A DNA stretch of 20,673 nt from a virus. The notes below the pieces were generated by a model that was not told the origin of the DNA, ran no database searches, and was given only the letters and a program-made list of their open reading frames with translations. Below, piece after piece: positions 1 to 12,214 of the stretch (positions are counted from its first letter, which is position 1; every line of letters starts with the position of its first letter). The stretch is from positions 1 to 20,673 of IMG/VR virus record IMGVR_UViG_3300029319_000653. One strand, written 5' to 3'. Made by a program: the position numbers and the translations under genes.

Positions 1-2025
1 CTTAGTACCTCTACAGTGGGACGCGATGCACTATTTAACGCAATCATTCAAAGTGCGTTACCTATAGCTCAATCAAATGCACAGGCTTTACAGCAACGCG
101 CACAGCAGAACCTGAGTAATCAGCAACAAGCTAATCTTGCTTCTGCACAGAATACTATGCAAGTGCGTATGGCTAATCTGTCTAATCGTCAAACAGCAGC
201 ATCACAGACTGCACAGATGGCACAGCAGATTAAAGTACAGCAAGGTCAGTTCAGACAAGAAGCTACTATGTTGACTGCACAGCAGCGACAGCAGACAGAG
301 ATGGCTAACTTCCAAGCTGCACAGCAAAGAGCTTCTCAGGAATCTAGTCAACGTCAGCAAACAGCATTAGCTAATCTTGATGCTGGTTCACGTATGGATC
401 TGGCTAACCTTCAGGCATTGAATGCTGCTGGCGCACAGAACCTAAACGCAGAACAACAAGCTAGGCTACAATCTTATCAGGCGCAAGTAAACAGAACAAT
501 GCGTCAGGCAGAGCTTGAGCAAGACATGACAAAAGCTAATCTATCTTCAGAGTTGCAGATAGAAATGGCTAACCTGACTGAACAAAATGCAGCCGCTCGT
601 GACACGATGACTGCTGAGAATCAGGAGAGACTTACAAATCTCCAAACTCTTGTTGACTTCAAGAAGACCAATGCAAACCTTGCTCAACAGATGGATTTAG
701 CAAACCTCAATAACGAGCAACAAATGGAGCTTGCTAATCTAGCTGAAAGAGCAGCTACCGATTCAGCCAACATGACTGAGGCCAATAGGTTCAGGCTTCA
801 AGAGTTGACGATGGCTACAAAGATTCTTTCGGAGAATACAGAGCTACGTCAAAGGGCTGAGTTAGCACAGTTAAGTGCATCAGAGAAAGTATCGTTAGCA
901 AACCTTACTGCTAAGAACCAAGCTGACTCCGAAAGCATGAATGCTAGAAACGTAGCAGAGTTGGCTACCTACGAGAAGAAAATGCAAGCGGCTACTGTTA
1001 ACGCTCAGTTAGCGCAGCAGATGGGACTAGCTAATCTAAGCAACGAGCAGCAAGCAGCTATGTTTAATGCTCAGATAGACGCTAACTTAGACATGAAGCA
1101 GTTTGATGCTAATCAGCAAATGCAGTTAGCTAATAGTCAGTTTATGCAGACTACTGCCTTGAAGAATCTTGACAATAGACAACAAGCTGCTATGCAGAAC
1201 GCTACAATGATGGCGCAGATGGACTTAGCGTCTGCTGACCAGCGTACTAAGTTAGCTATTGAGAATGCACGTAACTTCTTACAGATGGACATGGCTAACC
1301 TAAGCAATGAGCAACAGTCTCTTGTTCTTGATCAGCAGATGAAGCAGCAGCGTATTCTTTCTAATCAAGCGGCTGAGAATGCTGCTAGACAGTTTAACGC
1401 TACGTCAGAGAATCAGACTAATCAGTTCTTAGCCTCTATGGAAGCTAACATGAACCAGTTTAATGCTGCTCAGTCTAATGCTATGGAACAGTTTAATACT
1501 GCTGAAAAGAACCGAACAGAAGCAATCAATGCAGGTAATCAGTTAGAAGCTGACAGATTCAATGCACAGATTACTACACAAGTAGAGCAGTTCAACGCTC
1601 AGATGGATTACCAAGTAGAGCAGTGGAACGCAGCCAACGCACAGGCCGTAGAACAATCTAATGTTGATTGGAGACGTAGGGCTAACCTAGCTGACACAGC
1701 CGCTCAGAACGCAGCTAATCAGCAGCAAGCAGCGTTTCAGTTTGACTTAGACAAGACTTCACAGACTCAGCTTTGGCAGCAGCTACGTGACCAAGCAGCC
1801 TTTGACTTCCAAAGAGAAGAGTCAGAAAGAGATAGACTAGTTAACGTAATTAACGCTGCACTATCTAATGAGGCGTTCATGACAGATAAGAACATGAAAA
1901 GCCAAAGAGATCAACTTTTCAGTTTGTTGAAGAGAGTTACTGGCGGTGAAGAGATTGATTTTATGTCACCGGACAGAGGCGCTAGTCCCGGTAGGTCAAA
2001 TACTGATGGCAGTCGCGGAAGGTAG
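1..2025 (+). CDS. Hendecad-repeat virion protein (Q/N/A-rich), 5' truncated
   Basis: The reading frame is open to the left edge: codons 1-15 read L-S-T-S-T with no stop before the GTG at 16. The true start is therefore probably outside the window. Residue numbers here count the GTG as 1. About 669 residues are visible, extremely rich in Gln, Asn and Ala, with no cysteine seen and almost no proline outside the two ends. Residues 20-580 consist of 11-residue units with Asn commonly at position 2, Leu/Ala at 3 and Leu/Met/Gln at 11. This pattern is expected for a long alpha-helical, probably coiled-coil, rod. Residues 581-640 are more charged and still helix-like; the last 30 residues are Gly/Ser/Arg-rich and look disordered. 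It precedes a block of ejection-type proteins, so a virion role (fibre, rod or ejection component) is inferred. I do not recognise a named family, although similar Q/N-rich proteins occur in marine phages. Confidence 0.85.
   Translation, partial: LSTSTVGRDALFNAIIQSALPIAQSNAQALQQRAQQNLSNQQQANLASAQNTMQVRMANLSNRQTAASQTAQMAQQIKVQQGQFRQEATMLTAQQRQQTEMANFQAAQQRASQESSQRQQTALANLDAGSRMDLANLQALNAAGAQNLNAEQQARLQSYQAQVNRTMRQAELEQDMTKANLSSELQIEMANLTEQNAAARDTMTAENQERLTNLQTLVDFKKTNANLAQQMDLANLNNEQQMELANLAERAATDSANMTEANRFRLQELTMATKILSENTELRQRAELAQLSASEKVSLANLTAKNQADSESMNARNVAELATYEKKMQAATVNAQLAQQMGLANLSNEQQAAMFNAQIDANLDMKQFDANQQMQLANSQFMQTTALKNLDNRQQAAMQNATMMAQMDLASADQRTKLAIENARNFLQMDMANLSNEQQSLVLDQQMKQQRILSNQAAENAARQFNATSENQTNQFLASMEANMNQFNAAQSNAMEQFNTAEKNRTEAINAGNQLEADRFNAQITTQVEQFNAQMDYQVEQWNAANAQAVEQSNVDWRRRANLADTAAQNAANQQQAAFQFDLDKTSQTQLWQQLRDQAAFDFQREESERDRLVNVINAALSNEAFMTDKNMKSQRDQLFSLLKRVTGGEEIDFMSPDRGASPGRSNTDGSRGR
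73..1755 (+). repeat. 51 in-phase 11-residue (33-bp) coding repeats
   Basis: Laying residues 20-580 of the first protein in rows of 11 gives 51 rows in one register. Asn falls at position 2 in roughly 33 rows, position 3 is mostly Leu or Ala, and position 11 is mostly Leu, Met or, near the end, Gln. Examples are ANLNNEQQMEL (residues 229-239), ANLSNEQQAAM (339-349), FNAQITTQVEQ (515-525) and FNAQMDYQVEQ (526-536). At the DNA level the units differ at many synonymous sites, so the order is kept in the protein rather than as identical tandem DNA. Confidence 0.9.
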
Positions 2026-2051: not shown

Positions 2052-3014
2052 ATGGGATTCCTAAGTAAACTTTGGAAAGGTATTAAAAAGACTTTCAAGA
2101 AGATTTTCAAGCCTATTAAAAAGGTTTTTAAGTCTATCGGAAAGTTCGTAGGTAAACTAGGTATCGTAGGTCAAGTTGCTATGGCTTTCGTAGGAGTGCC
2201 TAGTATATTTAGTATGATGTCCAATACATTCGGAGGCATTGCTGGAACATTAGGAAGGTTTACTACTGGTCCCCTAGGAAAGCTTGCTAAAGGAGGTCAG
2301 TGGTTTATGGATAAGGCTGGAAAATTTTCTAGCACTTTAGGCCAAGGTTTTAAAACTGTGAGCGATACTGTAACTTCTTTCTTTGGAAACACTGCTAAGT
2401 TTATTGGTAATAAGTTAAATATTACTAAATTTGATAATGTCCCTACAAATTTCTTTGGAGAAAAAGGAGTCATGTCGGATGTGTTTGAAACCTTCAATAA
2501 TAACTTTGATAAGTTTAGAGGAGAAGCAGGGGACTTAATCAGCTTAGGAAAAGGTTCTCCAACAGCAGAAGCAGCAGCCTCTGTAGCGCAACCTGAGAAA
2601 ATTGAAACTTCTCCAGTTAGTGAAGCTATTGAGGAGGCTACAGAAGAGGCCGTGAAACCAAAAGGATTCTTTAATAACCTAAGGATGAAACCTTTTCAAA
2701 CGTTAACTGGCGCAGAATCTGTAGGAGATTTTGCAGTAAAAACAGGACAGGGAGCCGTAGGTAGCCTAACAACTCAAAGTCTGTTAGGTGCGGTTCAAGG
2801 GGACCCAGAGCAACCCGGACCTGCGTGGGCTTCTCAATACTTTCCTCAATCATTTAGCCAACCTAGTCCGGCTTTTATGCAAGCTAGGCAAGAAATGATG
2901 TTACCTAGTTTACCTGTGTTTTCACAATCAACTATTGATTATAGTCAGTTTATGCAAGCACTTGCGCCCACATTTGGTACGAGTCCACAAGGTATTTACG
3001 GACTAAATAGGTAG
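2052..3014 (+). CDS. Putative internal/ejection virion protein with cationic amphipathic N-terminus
   Basis: The protein has 320 residues. The ATG follows AAAGGAG (2035-2041) by ten bases, a strong ribosome binding site. The first 35 residues contain about 12 lysines interleaved with Phe, Ile, Val and Trp (for example KKTFKKIFKPIKKVFKSIGK), which should form a cationic amphipathic helix. Residues 36-75 are hydrophobic and Gly-rich, which suggests membrane contact. Residues 160-205 are Ala/Glu/Pro-rich and acidic, and the C-terminus is rich in Pro, Gln, Phe and Ser. There is no enzymatic motif. The position after the repeat protein and before two very large proteins fits the inner-core/ejection module of a podovirus. 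The function is inferred from context and composition only. Confidence 0.8.
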   Translation: MGFLSKLWKGIKKTFKKIFKPIKKVFKSIGKFVGKLGIVGQVAMAFVGVPSIFSMMSNTFGGIAGTLGRFTTGPLGKLAKGGQWFMDKAGKFSSTLGQGFKTVSDTVTSFFGNTAKFIGNKLNITKFDNVPTNFFGEKGVMSDVFETFNNNFDKFRGEAGDLISLGKGSPTAEAAASVAQPEKIETSPVSEAIEEATEEAVKPKGFFNNLRMKPFQTLTGAESVGDFAVKTGQGAVGSLTTQSLLGAVQGDPEQPGPAWASQYFPQSFSQPSPAFMQARQEMMLPSLPVFSQSTIDYSQFMQALAPTFGTSPQGIYGLNR

Positions 3015-3023
3015 GATATTAAT

Positions 3024-3554
3024 ATGTCAGACGTAGAACTAGATCAAGCATTTTTTAAAGCTGGGACATCTTTTGATAGGGCAATGCCCGGAGAGTCTCT
3101 TACTCGTGACCCTGACGATAGGTTGCCTTTTGAACAGCCTCCTAAGTTTACGGATCGTAAAGAAGCTTTAGAATATTACTTTGAATTATTCACCGAAGAA
3201 GATAACTATGTCGGTATTATGGATACTTTAGAGTCAGGTGTATCCATTATGGAAGTAGTTCAAGTATTTCTTATGCAGGGATTTAGGGATGGTCTAGTTA
3301 ATCCAGACATGATTTTAATGTTGGCAGAACCTTTAGCATACATGATAGCAGCTTTAGCAGAAAGAGCAGACGTAGATTTTACAATCATGAACGATCCTGA
3401 TGAGATGGCTACTGATGAAGAAAGAGAGCTACCTATTATGAATCAGAAACTAGGTACGATTGAAAAACCGCAAATGGATGAAGACTTTCCTGCTGATCTG
3501 GCAGGTAAGCTAGAAAATGTAGAAGCACCACCCTCTTTGTTAGGAGCAAGATAA
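3024..3554 (+). CDS. Acidic hypothetical protein of the virion block
   Basis: The protein has 176 residues. The ATG is preceded by AGGA (3013-3016) with seven bases of spacing. It is strongly acidic, with many Asp and Glu residues especially at 45-60 and 125-155. The middle (about residues 70-115) is more hydrophobic and helix-like, followed by an Asp/Glu-rich tail ending in a short Pro-Pro-Ser-Leu-Leu segment. No transmembrane segment of convincing length and no catalytic motif were seen. It ends directly before the ATG of the next gene (TAA then ATG, with AGGAG at 3542-3546 inside this gene), so translation of the two is probably coupled. It could be an assembly partner of a neighbouring large protein, but that is a guess from position. 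Confidence 0.8.
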   Translation: MSDVELDQAFFKAGTSFDRAMPGESLTRDPDDRLPFEQPPKFTDRKEALEYYFELFTEEDNYVGIMDTLESGVSIMEVVQVFLMQGFRDGLVNPDMILMLAEPLAYMIAALAERADVDFTIMNDPDEMATDEERELPIMNQKLGTIEKPQMDEDFPADLAGKLENVEAPPSLLGAR

Positions 3555-5999
3555 ATGGCGAACGGTAACGACTTAGCACAAGCTTATTCAATTCTTGGTC
3601 AAGGTATGACCGCAGAGTATGAGCGTAGGCGAAGAGAAGAAGAAGAGTATCGTAAGAGAGCTAGAAGGGATCAGCTTCTTGGTTATCTTATTGCACCTAT
3701 TGGACAAGAGCTTGCTAAAGGCGTTTCTCAAGTTATCTCTGCACCCTTTCAGCAAGCAACAGAAAAGTTTCTTGCAACTGAGCAAGGTAGGGCGCTAAAC
3801 AAAGATATAGCTAAAATAGGTAGCTTCAAGTCTCAGGCTAATGCTAGAGACAAAGAAATTAATAGTAAGTTTGCTGGAGATGATTATGCTTATCATCTGG
3901 ACATGGTTGAGCGAAATATAACCAAGCAGACCCGCGCAGATTTTATACAGGAGTTTGGTGTTTCTGAGTCTGCGTTAGATGATAAGAATACAGATATTTC
4001 TAGAAGATATAGGTCTTTTCTACAAGAGCAGTTAGCTAGAGCAGAAGAGATTGCAAAAAGAGAGACAGAAGAATATCAAGCTTTTAGAGCCGCCGTTTCT
4101 AGTTATAAAACAGGACAAGACGCTAAAGAAGTTGTTTCTAGATATGGTCCGTATGCTAAGGGTCCATTGGGAGGAATAATTAACGTAGGTAAAAGATTGT
4201 TTTCTGGTATGTCTTTTTCTGAAGCTATTTCTGGGCCTTCTCAAGAAGAAAAAGATAAGGCTGTCATTAAAGCTAGGCAGACTCTTAATTTAACAGATCA
4301 AGAGTTTGCATCTCTTTCTGAAAAGGCTAAGTCTGGTTTAAGTTTTGCAAAACTAGACGAAGAGATTGACAAGTTAGCTACTTCTAAAGATCCCGCAATA
4401 GAGCAATTAAGAATACGTCAAAAACGTGACGAAGAGTTCCATGCTGCTTTTGATGCACGAGAGCTTCCTGCTATATATACCACTAGTTACAGAAGGTACA
4501 TGGCCGAAAAAGATGGAAGAAGGCCCGGACTAGACGAGCTTATGTTTTATATGGAAGAAAAACAAGGGATAGATGCTTTAGGTTTTTCTGAAAATGAGCG
4601 CGGCAATATCATAACCAAGATGAACAGTGTTCCTTCTGTTGTCTCTCTAGGAAACGAGTTTAAAGAAAGCATATTAAAAGACATGGACGTTGACGATCCT
4701 ACTAAAGCCTCTGCTACGCAAATACAAAGGGCCGAAAAAAAGTGGGAAAATGTTTTAGATTCTGCGTTATATCAAGCTCAAATAGAATATGCACAGGCTT
4801 CAAATATTGCTCCAGAAGATAATCCTCTTCTGTTAATGTCTGCTGGCGAGAAACGCTCGCTAATAATTCAAAACGCTATTGATAAGCTTTCTATGTTAGA
4901 GAGAGAACCTGCCGAAGAGCAAGGAGCGATAAGTAAGTTCTTCGGGATGGAGCATGTTCCAACCCCCGGAAGATTTACTGGTGCGTTTAATTTTGATGCT
5001 TTAAAAGCTTCTAGTCCTGAGTCTGCTGCTCCTCAAGTAAGTACGCAAGCTGCGCCACCTAGTTTAGGGCCGCTTCCTAGAGAGCTTGAACAGGATATTA
5101 TAAGAACGGTAACTACTGGAGATGAGGCAGGGGCTATAGAAAAAATTAAGCTTCTTGAGGAAGGAGGATATACGATCCCTATAGCTCTAAAGAACCTTGA
5201 GGTTATTTCTATTGAAGAACCAGATGCTGGACCTTTATCTCAAGCTGAAAGAAAAAGAGCAAGAGGAAGAGGCCAAAGAGTTGATCTTAGTGAGCTGCTT
5301 CCAGAAAGCCCAAGTCAGTCAGGTAGAATGAAACGAGCATTGAAAAGAAATCTTGAAAAAGCACAAGAAGCAGAACCTGTTTCTACTGTTACTCAGGGGC
5401 CTACTGCCGCGCAACGAATGGATAGCTTGTTAGCAGATATAGGGGTTGATGAAAGGGACTTAGAGCCAACGCCTCGCACATCTTTTGAAAGCAGTCCTAG
5501 CTCTTTTGTCGCTAGTATTGAAAGACGCACCAATAGGTTAGACGTTCCTAACGTAAGGACCAAGGCAGGGCGCGGAATTGTATCTAAAATGAAACAAGAG
5601 GTTAAAGAGCAGCTAGGGGTTGAGCTTAGTAGAAAAGAAACCCAACAAGTAGTTGATGGTTTAATTGATCCTAGTGAAGATCAGATTCAAGGTATTTTAG
5701 ATATTTTGTCTAAAAGACCTCCTATTAAAGGCATGACTATGGAGCCTAGTGAGGATCAAATAGCTGGTCTTTTGAAAGTTCTTGAAGGCATTGCACCTGC
5801 TAAAAAATCTGATCCTTCTCTTTTATCAGACACAGAAAGCTTAGACATAGATCGTCAAATTGCTAGAGAGTTAGCAGACGATATTAAATCTCTTAGGGGG
5901 TTTTCTGGTATGAATAGGCAAACTATAGAAGAGCGCATAGCTAATATGAACGTATCTTCTGGTATAAGAGACTTAGCACTTCAGTTTATTTTTGAATAG
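3555..5999 (+). CDS. Large charged, coiled-coil-rich putative internal virion protein
   Basis: The protein has 814 residues and starts immediately after the previous stop. The N-terminal 40 residues are rich in Arg, Glu and Tyr (EYERRRREEEEYRKRARRDQ), followed by a helix of mixed hydrophobicity. Long charged helical stretches run to about residue 470. A Pro/Ser/Ala-rich linker lies near 475-510, and low-complexity charged regions follow to about 660. Near residues 705-745 there is a duplicated PSEDQI-x-G-x-L motif, 25 residues apart. No lysozyme, transglycosylase or protease motif was recognised. Large size, helical composition and position next to a 1263-residue protein fit podoviral ejection proteins of the T7 gp15/gp16 kind. 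This is an analogy by context, not visible homology. Confidence 0.8.
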   Translation: MANGNDLAQAYSILGQGMTAEYERRRREEEEYRKRARRDQLLGYLIAPIGQELAKGVSQVISAPFQQATEKFLATEQGRALNKDIAKIGSFKSQANARDKEINSKFAGDDYAYHLDMVERNITKQTRADFIQEFGVSESALDDKNTDISRRYRSFLQEQLARAEEIAKRETEEYQAFRAAVSSYKTGQDAKEVVSRYGPYAKGPLGGIINVGKRLFSGMSFSEAISGPSQEEKDKAVIKARQTLNLTDQEFASLSEKAKSGLSFAKLDEEIDKLATSKDPAIEQLRIRQKRDEEFHAAFDARELPAIYTTSYRRYMAEKDGRRPGLDELMFYMEEKQGIDALGFSENERGNIITKMNSVPSVVSLGNEFKESILKDMDVDDPTKASATQIQRAEKKWENVLDSALYQAQIEYAQASNIAPEDNPLLLMSAGEKRSLIIQNAIDKLSMLEREPAEEQGAISKFFGMEHVPTPGRFTGAFNFDALKASSPESAAPQVSTQAAPPSLGPLPRELEQDIIRTVTTGDEAGAIEKIKLLEEGGYTIPIALKNLEVISIEEPDAGPLSQAERKRARGRGQRVDLSELLPESPSQSGRMKRALKRNLEKAQEAEPVSTVTQGPTAAQRMDSLLADIGVDERDLEPTPRTSFESSPSSFVASIERRTNRLDVPNVRTKAGRGIVSKMKQEVKEQLGVELSRKETQQVVDGLIDPSEDQIQGILDILSKRPPIKGMTMEPSEDQIAGLLKVLEGIAPAKKSDPSLLSDTESLDIDRQIARELADDIKSLRGFSGMNRQTIEERIANMNVSSGIRDLALQFIFE

Positions 6000-6006
6000 G
6001 TAACAA

Positions 6007-9000
6007 ATGGATCTAGACACCTTTAGTATTGGTCAAGATGATGAAGAGGAAGAAGAAACGCTGTTTTCTATTGACGATATAAAAAATCGTATAGCAGAAA
6101 CGCAAGAGCTTGTTTCTCAGAATCAGCAAGACTTTGACAACGTAGACACCTCTAGAAAGGCGGCATACGGTTTCGCACAGGAGCCTATGTTAACTGCTAA
6201 CTTAGGTAGATATGCTTCGGCTATTTACGATTCAGCAACCAGTGACCTTACGTTTGATGAAGCTTTATCTGAAATAGAATACAAGAGACAACAGGATATA
6301 TTTAAAGAGTATCCTGAGTTTAGAGGTATCTCAGAACAAAAAGAAGATGCGGCTGTTATTGCAGGAAGAGTCGGTGGGGTTGTTGCTGATCCTATTACTT
6401 GGGCTTTTCCTTGGTTAAAAGTAGCAAAGGCAGGAAAACTAGCGGCGGCTACAACAGGCGCGACGTTTACTGGTACAGAGGTTGCATTACGCGACAATCT
6501 AATATATGGAGAAGTCAACCCGATTAACTTAGGTGTTGCTACTGTATTAGGCGGCGCTGGAGGTACTCTGTCTGGTTACTTGGCTAACAGAGTTAAAGCT
6601 GGTGAGGTTGTTGAACAACGCGCTCAGAGGGCTTTAGCAGAGGTGGCAGAAGATCCTGCTGCTGTTGAAAGAATTGAAATAGACGCAAGCGTAGACCCTA
6701 AGCCTAGAGTTAGGGTAAGACCTTTTCAAGAGGGAGAAAAGCCTAGAATTATTTTATCTGCTCAAGAGATAGCAGACATTGAAGATGCGGCTAGTCGTGT
6801 AGTTACTGCTGAATCTAGGATGGCAGCTATTCCAGAGGCAACCGCTACTGGAACTAATTTAACTATGCGGCATGAGCCTATTGTAAAAATGGAGCAGGTT
6901 CTAGCAGACTTAAAATCTTTTACTGTTTCACCTAATTCAAAAAAGAGAGACGCGGATAAGATGGTTGCTTCTCTTGAAAGAGCTTTAAAGAGGCAACAAA
7001 AGAAAGAAAGACCTGATCGTTTAATTATAGAAGACATACAAGAAAGACTTGCTTTCTTTAGAACAGAAAAAACAGCAAAAGCTGCACAAGGAACTAAAGC
7101 CTACAACGCTGCTTTAACAGATAGGATATCTTCTATACAGGAGAAAATAACTGACCTAGAAAATAAGTTTATGAGTGGGCATATTAAACGTTCTACCGCC
7201 GCCGTAGACTTAGCAGCTAACACGCTAGAAGACCTAAATAAAAATAACAAGATGACTCAGGGTATTTTAAAGACGTTAATCTTTGAGCCTACTAGACCAA
7301 TCATAGGCGGCATAGGTGGCTATGTTACGGCTGGTGTTGTAGGTGACGAAGATGACGCTGCTTTAACTGGTGGGCTTATAGCGGCAGGGGCTGCTTTAGG
7401 GTATTACCAAAAAGCATTACAAAATATGCGTCTTAGTGCTGTAGATCTAGAAACAGGAAGAATGTATATAGGTCAGGCAGCAGAAAGCACACTAAACACA
7501 GCTTCTAAAATATTGACCGCAGGAACCTCTGCGACTAAGTCAGATGCTTATGGCGGCTGGAACAAGATTATAACTAATCTACTTATTCAAAAGCCCGGAG
7601 GGGCAACTAACTCTGTAGAGACAACTTACTTATCTGACTTTTCGTCTTATATGGGAGATGTGGCTAGAATCTATGGGGACTCCTTTGAGAACACAAACGT
7701 AGTTAAAACTGTTACAGAAGTTATGCGTGGATGGACTGATCCTTCTCAAATAAGGGCCGGGTATCGTGGAATAAGTGGCGAGCTTTCTAAGAAAGGTTTA
7801 ACAGAAGCAGATGTAGCAGAAGTCCAGAGAATTGCTCCGCTGTTAACGCAGGCTAATGACAGTATTAAAGAGAGCATGAAAGCGGCAGGAATTAAGTTTA
7901 CTGAGCTAGACAACTATGGACTGGCCCAGCTTTGGAACTATGAAACCATTGCTAAAAAAGGAGTAGATAGTTATTTAGATGATGCTGTTCAGGCGTTTAC
8001 TATTCAATACGACAACAAGCTGGCTGCTGGTCTTATAAAGAATATGCCAAGCGAAGAACGTATTTTAAAAGAAGCCAGCGACTTTGTTGACAATGTTAGA
8101 GGAATAGATCGTTATTCTAGTTCAGGTAGCTATAACTCTTATGCACTTTTCACAGAAGGAGCAAATCCTAGATTTAGACCGCTTGCAAAAAACTTTGAAA
8201 AACATCGTAAGCTAACAGACACACAAGCAACAGCGTTTATGGCTGAAAGAGGATGGCTTAACTTAGATTCTAAGGCAGTGTCTTATATGTATGCTGATAG
8301 AGCTATAAAGATGCGTAATTTTGCTAATGTGTTTGGGGCAGAAGGAGAGCTGATAAACAGAGCTTTTTCTAATATTGATGAGGTCTTTAAAAAAGCAGGT
8401 GCAGATAAAGCTAGGTTTGGTAACGCTTATGCTGCTAATTTAAGAAATACTATTGAAGCTTTTTGGGGAGTACATGGACAATCTTCAAAGTTTGGTTCAA
8501 TAGGCGCGCCTTTTATGTCCCTTGTTACTACGCTTGCTAACTCAACTATGTTGACCCGTGTAAGTATCTCGGCGCTTGGCGACTTAATTCAGCCTATTCA
8601 AAATAGTGGTGTTGGTCCTACCATAAAAACCATTATGGGTAAGGTAACGCCCGGACAATCTTTTTCTAGTAAGTCAGGATTTAAGTACGACAAATCTTTT
8701 GAAAGAGAGTATACGGCTCTTATGGCACATGGTACAGATCCTTTCAGCTCATTTCAAACAGGCTTAAATAATTTTAATAGAATGTTTTTTAAGATTGTTC
8801 AGTTAGAAAGGGTTACAAAGATAGCTAGAGGCTTTGCTTATGATATAGGTGTTAGGCGCTCTTATGACCTAGCAAAAAGTATAAATAGAAAAGGCGGCAA
8901 GATTTCTGACGCTGCTCAAAAAGAGCTTAACCAGATGGGGATGTCGGCTGACGATGTTGCTTCTCTCGGTAAATATAAAAATGTAAATGAGGCTTTTGAT

Positions 9001-9798
9001 GCAGAAGACGGTCAAAAAATATTAGACATGGCTGGCCGAAGACTATCAGATAGGGATGCTATTGTTCCTATTGTAGGAAACAGACTTTTGTTTACTCAGA
9101 CAGGTAATCCTTATATTAGATCGCTTGGTCAGTTTTTGTCTTGGGCGCAGGCTAAAACAGCGCAAACTAACGCTCTTGTTGAGCGTATTGAAAATAAAGA
9201 TGCGGCTTTGGCAATGCGTACTGTAGGCTTAGTTCCTCTTTATATGGGTGTTCAGTATTTAAGAGAAGTGACAAAGCCTTCAGACCCACGCAGATCAGAA
9301 GCTCACGATGCTTTATCTAACAAACACGTTCAAGAGTCGTTAAAACTATCTGGAAATATTTTACCATTTCACATAGATAAAATAGTTAGCGGTGTAGGCG
9401 CACCTAGTAATAAGCTTATATCTGCAAACATTTCTCCTTCTTTAAGCTACGCAGATAATTTTGCTCAACAGATAAGTAAAGCAACTAGAAACATTAAGGC
9501 AGAAGATTATGATGGAGCTGTCAAGAACATGATTGAGATTGCTCCTTTTGGTAAGGAAGCTTCTTATTATTTGTTGGATTTAAAAGATCGCCCTAATTTT
9601 GAAAAAGGTGGCGAGGTAACAGACGTACCTAATGTGCCTACTGAACCTGATCAACGTATTGACAAGATGACAGGTATGCCCTACGACCAACAGGCTGGTA
9701 TGGCTTTTGTTGATGAAGAAGATCCAGTACGTAGACTAGGTTTCGTAGGTGGAGGGCTGACGCAAGACCCTTTACGTAAGTTAGGGTTTGGAGGATAA
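6007..9798 (+). CDS. Very large (1263 aa) putative ejection/internal core protein
   Basis: This is the largest gene in the window. The start ATG has only a weak upstream AGG, six bases after the previous stop. The N-terminus is very acidic (residues 11-17 are nearly all Asp/Glu). Gly/Ala-rich hydrophobic stretches at about 115-195 and 430-475 could enter or cross a membrane. Long helical regions surround a conserved-looking hydrophobic part at about 833-870. The C-terminal 32 residues carry two copies of a DP-(V/L)-R-(R/K)-LGF-(V)-GG motif. No enzyme motif was identified. Marine podo- and myoviruses often carry proteins of this size and style in the late region, and a role in the DNA-ejection core is the best inference. 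The final Gly-Gly codons supply the GGAGG used by the next gene. Confidence 0.85.
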   Translation: MDLDTFSIGQDDEEEEETLFSIDDIKNRIAETQELVSQNQQDFDNVDTSRKAAYGFAQEPMLTANLGRYASAIYDSATSDLTFDEALSEIEYKRQQDIFKEYPEFRGISEQKEDAAVIAGRVGGVVADPITWAFPWLKVAKAGKLAAATTGATFTGTEVALRDNLIYGEVNPINLGVATVLGGAGGTLSGYLANRVKAGEVVEQRAQRALAEVAEDPAAVERIEIDASVDPKPRVRVRPFQEGEKPRIILSAQEIADIEDAASRVVTAESRMAAIPEATATGTNLTMRHEPIVKMEQVLADLKSFTVSPNSKKRDADKMVASLERALKRQQKKERPDRLIIEDIQERLAFFRTEKTAKAAQGTKAYNAALTDRISSIQEKITDLENKFMSGHIKRSTAAVDLAANTLEDLNKNNKMTQGILKTLIFEPTRPIIGGIGGYVTAGVVGDEDDAALTGGLIAAGAALGYYQKALQNMRLSAVDLETGRMYIGQAAESTLNTASKILTAGTSATKSDAYGGWNKIITNLLIQKPGGATNSVETTYLSDFSSYMGDVARIYGDSFENTNVVKTVTEVMRGWTDPSQIRAGYRGISGELSKKGLTEADVAEVQRIAPLLTQANDSIKESMKAAGIKFTELDNYGLAQLWNYETIAKKGVDSYLDDAVQAFTIQYDNKLAAGLIKNMPSEERILKEASDFVDNVRGIDRYSSSGSYNSYALFTEGANPRFRPLAKNFEKHRKLTDTQATAFMAERGWLNLDSKAVSYMYADRAIKMRNFANVFGAEGELINRAFSNIDEVFKKAGADKARFGNAYAANLRNTIEAFWGVHGQSSKFGSIGAPFMSLVTTLANSTMLTRVSISALGDLIQPIQNSGVGPTIKTIMGKVTPGQSFSSKSGFKYDKSFEREYTALMAHGTDPFSSFQTGLNNFNRMFFKIVQLERVTKIARGFAYDIGVRRSYDLAKSINRKGGKISDAAQKELNQMGMSADDVASLGKYKNVNEAFDAEDGQKILDMAGRRLSDRDAIVPIVGNRLLFTQTGNPYIRSLGQFLSWAQAKTAQTNALVERIENKDAALAMRTVGLVPLYMGVQYLREVTKPSDPRRSEAHDALSNKHVQESLKLSGNILPFHIDKIVSGVGAPSNKLISANISPSLSYADNFAQQISKATRNIKAEDYDGAVKNMIEIAPFGKEASYYLLDLKDRPNFEKGGEVTDVPNVPTEPDQRIDKMTGMPYDQQAGMAFVDEEDPVRRLGFVGGGLTQDPLRKLGFGG

Positions 9799-10170
9799 GT
9801 GGACTACAAATATTTTACAGTAGATGAACTCAAGTGCCAACACTGTGGCGATCACAAGATGGACGATGATTTCATGATGAAAATAGAAGCTTTGCGACAT
9901 GAGCTAGGGTTTCCGTTTACGGTGACTTCTGCCTACCGCTGCCCGGATCATCCTATAGAGGCCCGTAAAGCCTCTCCGGGCGCTCATGCTTCTGGCAGGG
10001 CTGTGGACATAGCTTGCCAAGGAGACAAGGCTCACAGGCTTCTACAGGCTGCTCTACGTATGGGAATCAGTGGCATTGGTGTTAACCAGAAAGGCAGTGG
10101 TCGCTTTATTCACCTAGATGACCTAGAGAATGACTCAAGTAGGCCGCGTCCTTGGGTATGGAGTTACTAG
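9799..10170 (+). CDS. M15-family D-Ala-D-Ala peptidase (endolysin)
   Basis: The protein has 123 residues. The GTG start comes right after the preceding TAA and is served by GGAGG at 9790-9794. It contains the zinc-binding pattern of the M15 peptidases: H63 and D70 in HASGRAVD (H-x6-D) and a third ligand H105 in the H-L-D motif. The family-typical SAYRCPDH segment is at 44-51. A Cys-x2-Cys pair (13/16) lies near the N-terminus. Members of this family (peptidase_M15_3 type) cleave peptide cross-links in peptidoglycan and serve as phage endolysins. No signal peptide is visible, so it should need a holin for release, and a holin gene follows directly. The Gly-Asp-rich stretch here looks higher in GC than the genes before it. 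Confidence 0.92.
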   Translation: MDYKYFTVDELKCQHCGDHKMDDDFMMKIEALRHELGFPFTVTSAYRCPDHPIEARKASPGAHASGRAVDIACQGDKAHRLLQAALRMGISGIGVNQKGSGRFIHLDDLENDSSRPRPWVWSY

Positions 10171-10171
10171 T

Positions 10172-10561
10172 ATGAGTTTAGTATCAACTTTGGTAGGGCC
10201 TGTTACAGGCTTGTTAGATAAGTTTATTGAAGACAAGGATCAAAAGAATGCCTTGGCCCATGAGATTGCCACGATGTCAGAGAGACATCATCAGGAACTC
10301 ATGAAATCTCAGATAGAAGTTAACAAGGTTGAAGCGGCTAACTCTAATTTGTTCGTCAGTGGATGGCGACCTTTTATCGGGTGGACCTGTGGGCTAGGTA
10401 TGTTTGGTAACTTTATTACCATACCATTTGCTAACTTTGTTTTAGCTTTACTTGAAATAGCTATCGTTATACCTCTTGTACCTCTTGAAACTATGATGCC
10501 TGTGTTAATGGGTATGTTAGGTCTGGGTGCAATGAGGAGCTACGAAAAGACTAGAAAATAA
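10172..10561 (+). CDS. Three-helix phage holin (GTA-type 3TM holin family)
   Basis: The protein has 129 residues, taking the ATG at 10172, one base after the stop of the endolysin. A longer in-frame start at 10130 would overlap the endolysin by 41 bases and is less likely. Residues 20-60 are charged and helical, followed by S-G-W-R-P-F-I-G-W near 63-71. Three hydrophobic helices follow at about 68-88, 87-106 and 108-122, ending in a basic tail (RSYEKTRK). This layout, a soluble N-terminal helix, the W-R-P signature and three membrane helices, matches the 3TM holin family also found in gene transfer agents. It should permeabilise the inner membrane to release the M15 peptidase. The stop overlaps the next start as TAATG. 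Confidence 0.85.
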   Translation: MSLVSTLVGPVTGLLDKFIEDKDQKNALAHEIATMSERHHQELMKSQIEVNKVEAANSNLFVSGWRPFIGWTCGLGMFGNFITIPFANFVLALLEIAIVIPLVPLETMMPVLMGMLGLGAMRSYEKTRK

Positions 10562-11021: not shown

Positions 11022-11207
11022 ATGGCAACAAAGAAAAAGAAGTCTACCGTTAACAAAGCTGGTAACTATACTAAGCCTACGATGCGTAGGAATCTATTTA
11101 ACAAGATCAAAGCTGGATCAAAAGGCGGCAAGCCGGGGCAGTGGTCGGCACGTAAGGCGCAGATGTTAGCCAAGCAGTATAAAGCCAAAGGCGGTGGATA
11201 CAAGTGA
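11022..11207 (+). CDS. Small highly basic protein with W-S-A-R-K-A-Q motif
   Basis: The protein has 61 residues, and the start is preceded by GAGG with good spacing. It has 15 Lys and 3 Arg and no Asp or Glu. The N-terminal half is Lys/Thr/Asn-rich. The C-terminal half contains GGKPGQWSARKAQMLAK and ends GGGYK. I recall near-identical C-terminal motifs in many marine phage mini-proteins, but not a function. The charge suggests binding to nucleic acid, and its place in the late arm suggests a product made during assembly. The stop overlaps the next start (GTGA). Confidence 0.8.
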   Translation: MATKKKKSTVNKAGNYTKPTMRRNLFNKIKAGSKGGKPGQWSARKAQMLAKQYKAKGGGYK

Positions 11208-11407
11208 GCATAGATGCCATAGCTCAAACAAAGCCCTCTGGAGAGATTGTTAGGTGGACTACGAACAAGCAGCAGAGTGTAGATCACGCTACTAAGACTC
11301 AGACGGTGGCTGTTACCTACGAAGGTATTTTATATACGTACAAGGCTGGGGTAATGGCTACCGTTAATCTAGCTCCCGTTAAACGAATATATGACTTTAA
11401 GATATGA
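11204..11407 (+). CDS. Small hypothetical protein
   Basis: The protein has 67 residues. The GTG start overlaps the previous TGA (GTGA), with GGTGGA just upstream as a plausible ribosome binding site. The sequence looks like a small beta-rich soluble fold, with alternating hydrophobics in TQTVAVTYEGILYTY and VMATVNLAPVKRIYDF. There is no signal peptide, membrane helix or known motif. The chain of overlapping starts and stops on both sides supports it as a real gene. Function unknown. Confidence 0.65.
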   Translation: MSIDAIAQTKPSGEIVRWTTNKQQSVDHATKTQTVAVTYEGILYTYKAGVMATVNLAPVKRIYDFKI

Positions 11408-11670
11408 TTATTAGATTACTTGCTGTATTATTACTACTACAGGGATGTACGTGGTACGGAGAGATTGAACACATCTCAAGCATACCTAATGGTACTCCTT
11501 TTAATAATCTAGACGAAACCTCTACAGATATTATCTGGACAGGATTGAGAATAGAGAAGGATACTTGGTACATAGATGGCGCTGTAGGTTACGAAACATC
11601 TTCAGAGTTTGAAGGGCGTAACCCATATGGCAGGATTAAAATAGGCAAGGATATCAAAACATGGGACTAA
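11404..11670 (+). CDS. Small predicted lipoprotein
   Basis: The protein has 88 residues, and its ATG overlaps the previous stop (ATGA). The N-terminus MIIRLLAVLLLLQGC is a short lipoprotein signal: one Arg, seven hydrophobic residues, then a lipobox L-Q-G-C with Cys15 as the predicted lipidated residue. Gln at the -2 position is less usual. The mature part is about 74 residues with alternating hydrophobics (WTGLRIEKDTWYIDGAVGYE), which suggests a small beta-sheet domain. Lipidation would place it in the periplasm, probably on the outer membrane. Close to the holin and endolysin genes, it could act in outer-membrane disruption (o-spanin-like) or in superinfection exclusion. Both are inferences. 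Confidence 0.75.
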   Translation: MIIRLLAVLLLLQGCTWYGEIEHISSIPNGTPFNNLDETSTDIIWTGLRIEKDTWYIDGAVGYETSSEFEGRNPYGRIKIGKDIKTWD

Positions 11671-11903
11671 AGAAATCTCAAAAGTCTTTGAAGCGTTGGA
11701 CTAAGCAAAAGTGGAGAACGGCTAGTGGAAAGAAGTCTTCTGAAACTGGAGAGGTGTATGCGCCTTCTGCAACTATTAAGAAGCTGAAGTCCACGGCAGC
11801 AGGTAGGAAGAAGCTTGCAGCCGCTAACAAGAAGAAACGTAAGGCTACTGCTCAAGGTAAGCAACATGCTAAACATGGTTTACACAAAGGGAAGAAGCGA
11901 TGA
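11661..11903 (+). CDS. Small highly basic protein (DUF5872-like)
   Basis: The protein has 80 residues. AAGGA at 11647-11651 precedes the ATG with nine bases of spacing, and the start overlaps the lipoprotein end by ten bases. About a third of the residues are Lys or Arg and only two are acidic. The N-terminal SLKRWTKQKWRTASGKKS pattern, followed by a Y-x-P segment and a K-rich tail with GKQ, recalls the DUF5872 family of marine phages and giant viruses. That assignment is from memory and needs a profile search. It is probably nucleic-acid binding from its charge. It overlaps the next gene as ATGA. Confidence 0.75.
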   Translation: MGLKKSQKSLKRWTKQKWRTASGKKSSETGEVYAPSATIKKLKSTAAGRKKLAAANKKKRKATAQGKQHAKHGLHKGKKR

Positions 11904-12214
11904 GAGAAGATTATAAGAAGGGCGGTAAGTCTAAAAGAGATCCTAGACTAGCTCGTGCGGGTGTCAGTGGTTACAACAAGCCAAAGAGGACACCTAATCA
12001 TCCTAAGAAAAGCCATATTGTTGTCGCTAAAGAAGGTGACAAGGTTAAGACTATTCGCTTTGGTCAGCAGGGAGCTAAGACAGCAGGTAAGCCAAAGGCA
12101 GGAGAGTCTTCTCGTATGAAGAAGAAGAGAGCCAGCTTCAAGGCTCGTCACGCTAAGAACATCAAGAAGGGCAAGATGTCAGCAGCTTATTGGGCAAATC
12201 GTACAAAATGGTGA
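11900..12214 (+). CDS. Small basic conserved protein (DUF6321-like)
   Basis: The protein has 104 residues, starting in an ATGA overlap with AGGGAAG upstream. After a basic leader come GVSGYNKPKRTPNHPKKSH, VVAKEGDKVKTIRFGQQG and a C-terminal block FKARHAKNIKKGKMSAAYWANRTKW. I recall this three-block pattern (YNKPKRTP-HP-KSH, IRFGQQG, FKARH-NI-GKMSAAYWA) as the DUF6321 family, common in marine phages and also present in large eukaryotic viruses, often beside DUF5872-type sequences. No biochemical function is known to me. The protein is strongly basic. It is the last gene of the rightward arm, and its TGA abuts the stop codon of the opposing arm. Confidence 0.85.
   Translation: MREDYKKGGKSKRDPRLARAGVSGYNKPKRTPNHPKKSHIVVAKEGDKVKTIRFGQQGAKTAGKPKAGESSRMKKKRASFKARHAKNIKKGKMSAAYWANRTKW

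Follow-up and report, generated by a model that had tools for sequence, protein, structure and literature searches.

Protein H of phiX174 forms a decameric tube 17 nm long in which three hendecads (11-residue units) are followed by heptads, and Asn, Gln or Arg is found at 18 of 23 lumen residues (PMC7354561). The tape measure proteins of siphophages include rods that change by whole 11-residue units (PMC3271669), so a phage protein whose rod changes in this way is not unprecedented. Here, we examine a rod protein encoded at the start of the IMG/VR virus record IMGVR_UViG_3300029319_000653. The stretch analysed, positions 1 to 20,673, is referred to as the window (20.7 kb); the record ends with it and holds no further sequence. 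The first open reading frame (ORF), ORF1, encodes a rod that keeps a single 11-residue register, and the rods of its relatives differ in length by whole hendecads. The features of ORF1 are listed below, with positions in the window.

1..2025, + strand: ORF1, the rod protein; C-terminal 674 residues, open at the 5′ edge, with the start codon outside the window
1..75, + strand: end of the N-terminal anchor motif (...PxWA...RGLSxSTVGRDALFNAIIQSALPIAQ), invariant or nearly so in alignments
64..1755, + strand: hendecad rod, residues 22-585, in a single phase, with 50 hendecads between the anchors
1393..1668, + strand: C-terminal rod rows of 11, with position 1 mostly aromatic (F/W-N-A...)
1669..1722, + strand: C-terminal anchor motif WRRxxNTAxTAAxNAA, conserved in alignments and used as the distance anchor
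1756..2022, + strand: C-terminal tail; in more distant relatives its place is taken by a hydrophobic stretch rich in Gly/Ala, in some cases together with an S74 or CWVAR-type domain

The window sequence starts inside the conserved motif RGLS.STVGRDALFNAIIQSALPIAQ. An earlier account of the window made without database searches (the sequence-only reading) described the rod as part of the first protein. ORF1 covers only the C-terminal portion of that protein, because close relatives have approximately 440-850 extra N-terminal residues. Complete homologues that share the 556-residue distance between the anchors are about 1,130-1,350 residues long, and in the near clade full-length homologues on other contigs range from about 930 to 2,020 residues, against 386 to 1,670 residues among more distant members. 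In nearly all isolates examined, the homologue is labelled 'hypothetical'. The one at 1690-4281 in L094 (MW202701) is publicly annotated as 'huntingtin', evidently a low-complexity misannotation.

When the window rod is written in rows of 11, 33 of the 51 rows carry Asn at position 2, exactly as the sequence-only reading had counted; the best phase in 2,000 shuffles gave a mean of 9.9 and a maximum of 15. Leu/Ala at position 3 and Leu/Met/Gln at position 11, also singled out in that reading, are each present in 35 of 51 rows. The autocorrelation has the predicted peak at 11, with a lag-11 identity of 22.4 % (z 9.6), and identity is similarly high at each multiple of 11 up to lag 77, with no drift; there is no signal at lag 7. 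A cyclic 11-state hidden Markov model (HMM), in which phase jumps were allowed, decodes residues 22-585 as one segment, and the register is thus without a phase break, as had been claimed. The F/W spacing in the C-terminal rows resembles the F/W marks of tape measure proteins (PMC3271669).

The phase of the rod was compared among homologues using the distance that separates the conserved N-terminal anchor from the W in the C-terminal motif WRR. The first set contained 51 distinct sequences, and in all 51 this distance was 6 mod 11. More phage isolates were included later, followed by 80 viral contigs and 7 genome contigs. The added isolates, which had not been used to form the idea, all agree wherever both anchors could be located, and when all sets were pooled the distance was 6 mod 11 in 147 of the 150 distinct rods with both anchors. 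The remaining three were rejected as true exceptions, as they were traced to false matches to the W pattern. L036 and L037 lack the WRR motif, yet keep one phase (cyclic HMM), and L048 agrees when the other anchor is used.

These 150 rods include 19 different lengths, from 138 to 1,106 residues, an eightfold range. Examples from isolates are HTVC033P (182 residues), CRP-1 (248 residues) and HTVC103P (336 residues). The lengths of the N- and C-terminal flanks of the same proteins are spread over all 11 classes mod 11, and small insertions and deletions (indels) are plentiful in both flanks. On a tree, built quickly from alignment columns that exclude the variable rod part, a minimum of 30 length changes is required, or about 29 or more if one possibly false anchor (L048) is set aside, and all are of whole hendecads. 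Proline makes up only 2 of 37,172 residues in the rods and 5.9 % of residues in the N-terminal parts. No out-of-phase indel was found among about 150 relatives, in line with the expectation that homologues would differ by multiples of 11 residues. As loops would accept both proline and odd indels, the rod is best described as one continuous helical register with its phase under selection. The sequence-only reading had gone further and proposed that length as well as phase is selected, as in a molecular ruler; the phase part of this proposal stands, but a fixed length does not agree with the range of rod lengths found. Its suggestions of an external rod and of a rod that extends during ejection both retain some plausibility.

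In some clades there is a further unit, absent from the sequence-only reading. Rods in the clade of the window contain 30, 40, 50, 60, 70, 90 or 100 hendecads, with 50 in the window itself and 23 in one early branch, and rods in a second group contain 12, 22, 32 or 72. In pairwise alignments, the 666- and 776-residue relatives have single mid-rod insertions of exactly 110 or 220 residues, and the two longest rods have two insertions each. Internal identity peaks at 55, 110 and 220 residues, and at 110 and 220 is strongest in the long rods. The repeat copies share 37-38 % nucleotide (nt) identity in the window and 62-83 % in the best 165-nt stretches of long rods. Simple slippage is unlikely for most rods, because the copies are now too diverged. 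The ten-hendecad unit (110 residues) may be a structural quantum or the trace of an old tandem unit.

The nature of the helix differs from that first described. In ORF1, hydrophobic power at a period of 3.67 is nil (0.14) and is found instead at 2.2 and 2.75, and this helix would therefore lack the single hydrophobic stripe implied by the term hendecad coiled coil. On a helix with 11 residues in three turns, the hydrophobic positions form two opposed seams, 9/1 (with 5) and 11/3 (with 7), an arrangement that does not fit a simple two- or three-stranded hendecad coiled coil. Across 146 rods, the strength of a single hydrophobic face is 0.03 and that of two faces is 0.27, power at 3/11 is at the random level, and the canonical single core stripe (a, d, e, h) was not found. 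Positions 9-10-11-1-2-3 read h-p-h-h-p-h, the Type-3 signature that has been linked to two seams and large barrels (PMC6175849), and the positional profiles of the rods have the two seams expected of a Type-3 alpha-helical barrel or alpha-cylinder. Positions 6 and 10 are 41-47 % charged and positions 4 and 8 are 39-47 % amide. The charged face (6, 10) lies opposite the Gln/Asn/Ser-rich face (4, 8) in four of four divergent groups.

Outside the rod, the N-terminal part of the protein is low-complexity and Lys/Arg-rich at its start. This part is modular, because it carries a LysM domain in CRP-235 (L090, residues 71-110) and RTX calcium-binding repeats in L151. At the other end, a Gly/Ala-rich hydrophobic stretch terminates many of the distant members, though not those of the window's close clade. 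In the roseophage relatives CRP-3, CRP-235, CRP-738 and CRP-212 (L081, L090, L091 and L092, respectively), this stretch lies between the rod and a Peptidase_S74 domain, and self-cleavage by S74 could expose it as the mature C-terminus. The S74 domain was not found in the window ORF1 in the family scan. The C-termini of the proteins from HMO-2011 (L002) and L154 include a post-rod domain, CWVAREVYG...RW..FR.WL...AP.W, that has no Pfam match.

The gene order of the window is that of a short-tailed marine phage. The features that follow ORF1 are listed below, the last two from a profile scan.

2052..3014, + strand: ORF2, 320 aa, with a Lys/Phe-rich amphipathic start, then a hydrophobic stretch
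3024..3554, + strand: ORF3, 176 aa, the constant partner of the rod gene, with the motif PIPGxSLTxxPxxxPWExPP
3555..5999, + strand: ORF4, 814 aa, T7 gp15-like in size and place (synteny)
6007..9798, + strand: ORF5, 1,263 aa, T7 gp16-like in size and place
9799-10170: M15 peptidase
10130-10561: GTA-type holin with three transmembrane segments

In all isolates examined, the order of this block is constant, namely the rod gene, one to several small genes, then genes for proteins of approximately 180, 300-930 and 820-1,890 aa, and the sizes are like those of the products of T7 genes 14, 15 and 16 (196, 747 and 1,318). ORF3 follows the rod gene in 65 loci, and its family has no Pfam, PHROG or convincing PDB relative in profile searches. 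ORF2 is confined to close relatives (36 loci) and other small genes occupy the same place elsewhere; ORF2 matches tape measure profiles only weakly, at E 4.5e-5 in the best case. In CRP-603, the gene at this place is annotated as 'cell wall hydrolase'. Members of the ORF5 family match the PHROG 'virion structural protein' and 'endolysin' profiles. The rod gene comes after the tail-fibre genes, which are separate genes in the annotated phages. In P22, the needle gene 26 lies directly before the ejection genes 7, 20 and 16, and the synteny of the rod gene is therefore compatible with an ejection protein and with a needle alike.

The rod-headed block is comparable, in genome place and size series, to T7 gp14, gp15 and gp16 and to P22 gp7, gp20 and gp16. 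It differs in that none of these ejection proteins has period 11 or a sequence match to it, and the rod protein is an additional member. When T7 gp13-16, P22 gp7, gp20, gp16 and gp26, the products of ORF2-5 in the window and phiX174 H were compared, only H had period 11.

The M15 peptidase gene and the GTA-type holin ORF overlap by approximately 40 bases, a figure that depends on the start codon of the holin. Three short, very Lys/Arg-rich ORFs (61, 80 and 104 aa) lie close together on the + strand at 11022-12214, just ahead of a strand switch. From translations read by eye, we take the opposite-strand ORFs after the holin to encode ribonucleotide reductase, nucleases, DNA polymerase A and a primase-helicase.

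The explanation that we tentatively prefer is that the rod protein is a DNA-delivery tube or pilot of short-tailed marine phages. Each rod would be a single straight alpha-helix, and copies would pack laterally via the 9/1 (with 5) and 11/3 (with 7) seams into a large helical barrel or sheet, with the charged positions 6 and 10 outward and the Gln/Asn/Ser positions 4 and 8 inward. The protein would be carried in the virion with the products of ORF3-ORF5 and, at infection, would be deployed across the cell envelope, where it would act as a tube or pilot much as the tube of phiX174 H does. Such an assembly could account for the absence of indels that are not multiples of 11, because an indel of this type would twist all later residues out of the seams. 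At 138-182 residues, or 21-27 nm if straight, the shortest rods have a length that fits the Gram-negative envelope. H (PDB 4JPP) and the rod protein share hendecads and a hydrophobic segment rich in Gly/Ala at one end of the chain, and perhaps also side-by-side helices and an amide-rich inner face. However, this end is N-terminal in H and C-terminal in the rod-protein family, H has three hendecads while the rods have 12-100, and H belongs to a phage from another virus realm; the resemblance comes without demonstrated sequence homology. A more specific version, namely a Type-3 hendecad barrel lined with Gln/Asn that serves as a DNA-delivery tube of approximately 20-166 nm and is lengthened by hendecads, in some clades by ten-hendecad modules (16.5 nm), we consider unlikely.

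Several findings weigh against a delivery tube or pilot. If straight, the window rod would be 83 nm long and the longest rod 166 nm, far exceeding the envelope. The seam calibration was not clean, as the second harmonic is strong in the P22 gp26 trimer too and weak in phiX174 H; because this harmonic test poorly separated a known trimer from a decamer, we claim two seams but no subunit number. In profile searches against PDB, ORF4 had no sequence match to gp15 and ORF5 none to gp16; alignments of the rod, ORF3, ORF4 and ORF5 had no match to any of T7 gp14, gp15 and gp16, and the rod alignment had only a chance low-complexity match. AlphaFold2 single-chain models are all-helical but of low confidence and with helix breaks (pLDDT, the predicted local distance difference test score, was 51 for the window ORF1 with 24 sequences and 45 for a short homologue with 17 sequences), and a Foldseek search with the ORF1 model had no match that reached E 0.001. 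We do not trust the helix breaks in this model, since both indels and proline would be acceptable in loops and neither occurs in the family. No experimental work on the rod protein was found in literature searches. Finally, Peptidase_S74 is above cut-off at the C-terminus of CRP-3, CRP-212, CRP-235 and CRP-738, and an S74-like match falls below cut-off in L134. The S74 domain, the chaperone of endosialidase, normally marks trimeric fibres or spikes.

This domain is the strongest point in favour of an external rod, i.e. a tail fibre, needle or whisker, trimeric or of several helices, in which the variable N-terminal part anchors, the rod spaces and the C-terminal tips vary. The position of the rod gene after the tail-fibre genes is consistent with this, as is that of P22 gene 26, which encodes a trimeric helical needle and is likewise upstream of ejection genes. 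The RTX repeats of L151 and the swapped C-terminal domains resemble surface modules, and 83-166 nm suits a fibre better than an envelope channel. However, S74 is restricted to a single divergent clade, where 4 of 7 rows have it and other members do not, and most of the family lack it. The P22 needle is a short trimer, and the rod does not have the single hydrophobic face that a two- or three-stranded core would need. No receptor-binding-like beta domain is evident past the rod, separate tail-fibre genes are present, and the low-complexity N-terminal part with its Lys/Arg-rich start is unlike a conserved tail-binding domain. We regard an external rod as possible, though somewhat unlikely. The F/W residues found every 11 residues in the C-terminal rows, the weak tape measure matches of ORF2, the constant small partner ORF3 and the exact ten-hendecad steps, which suggest a length unit, would fit a ruler or scaffold similar to a tape measure, in which the hendecads, bound by a small chaperone (e.g. 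ORF3), are marks along a helix that determines how long some structure, a core stack or an extensible tail, becomes. Siphophage tape measure proteins are also long helical virion proteins with a variable number of 11-residue units, gapless in-phase alignments and F/W spacing in part of the rod. In contrast, the main mark of the rods described here is Asn at position 2, a ten-hendecad quantum is present, and cultured relatives are short-tailed (PMC6918029, PMC9038755), which would leave such a ruler without a long tube. The F/W marks are restricted to the C-terminal rows, and ORF1 itself matches no tape measure profile; ORF1 and its full-length homologues matched no Pfam or PHROG family, tape measure families included. 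A ruler or scaffold thus appears improbable.

Two other explanations are less likely still. An array without phase selection, changing in length via recombination between 33-bp units, would yield whole units, and the internal identity at 110 and 220 residues is indeed highest in long rods. However, the repeats are too diverged for easy exchange, and recombination does not purge small indels of the kind that are plentiful in both flanks; we consider this origin very improbable. An amphipathic helix of 11-mers that binds lipids or surfaces, of the LEA, perilipin or synuclein kind, would have the same period (11 residues in three turns) but needs one hydrophobic face, and the single-face strength and 3/11 power reported above leave it with almost no likelihood.

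Podoviruses of the HMO-2011 type and their relatives rank among the most abundant phages in the ocean. Their rod family is an extreme natural case of register conservation, with up to 100 hendecads without a slip, and in the isolates with rods of 15-30 hendecads the rod length could be set directly against fibre, core or channel size. If the rod does form a delivery tube, this would be an all-helical tube of adjustable length, unlike the known podovirus ejectosomes, and a common building principle would link the pilot proteins of single-stranded DNA phages, tape measure proteins and the ejection machinery of podoviruses.
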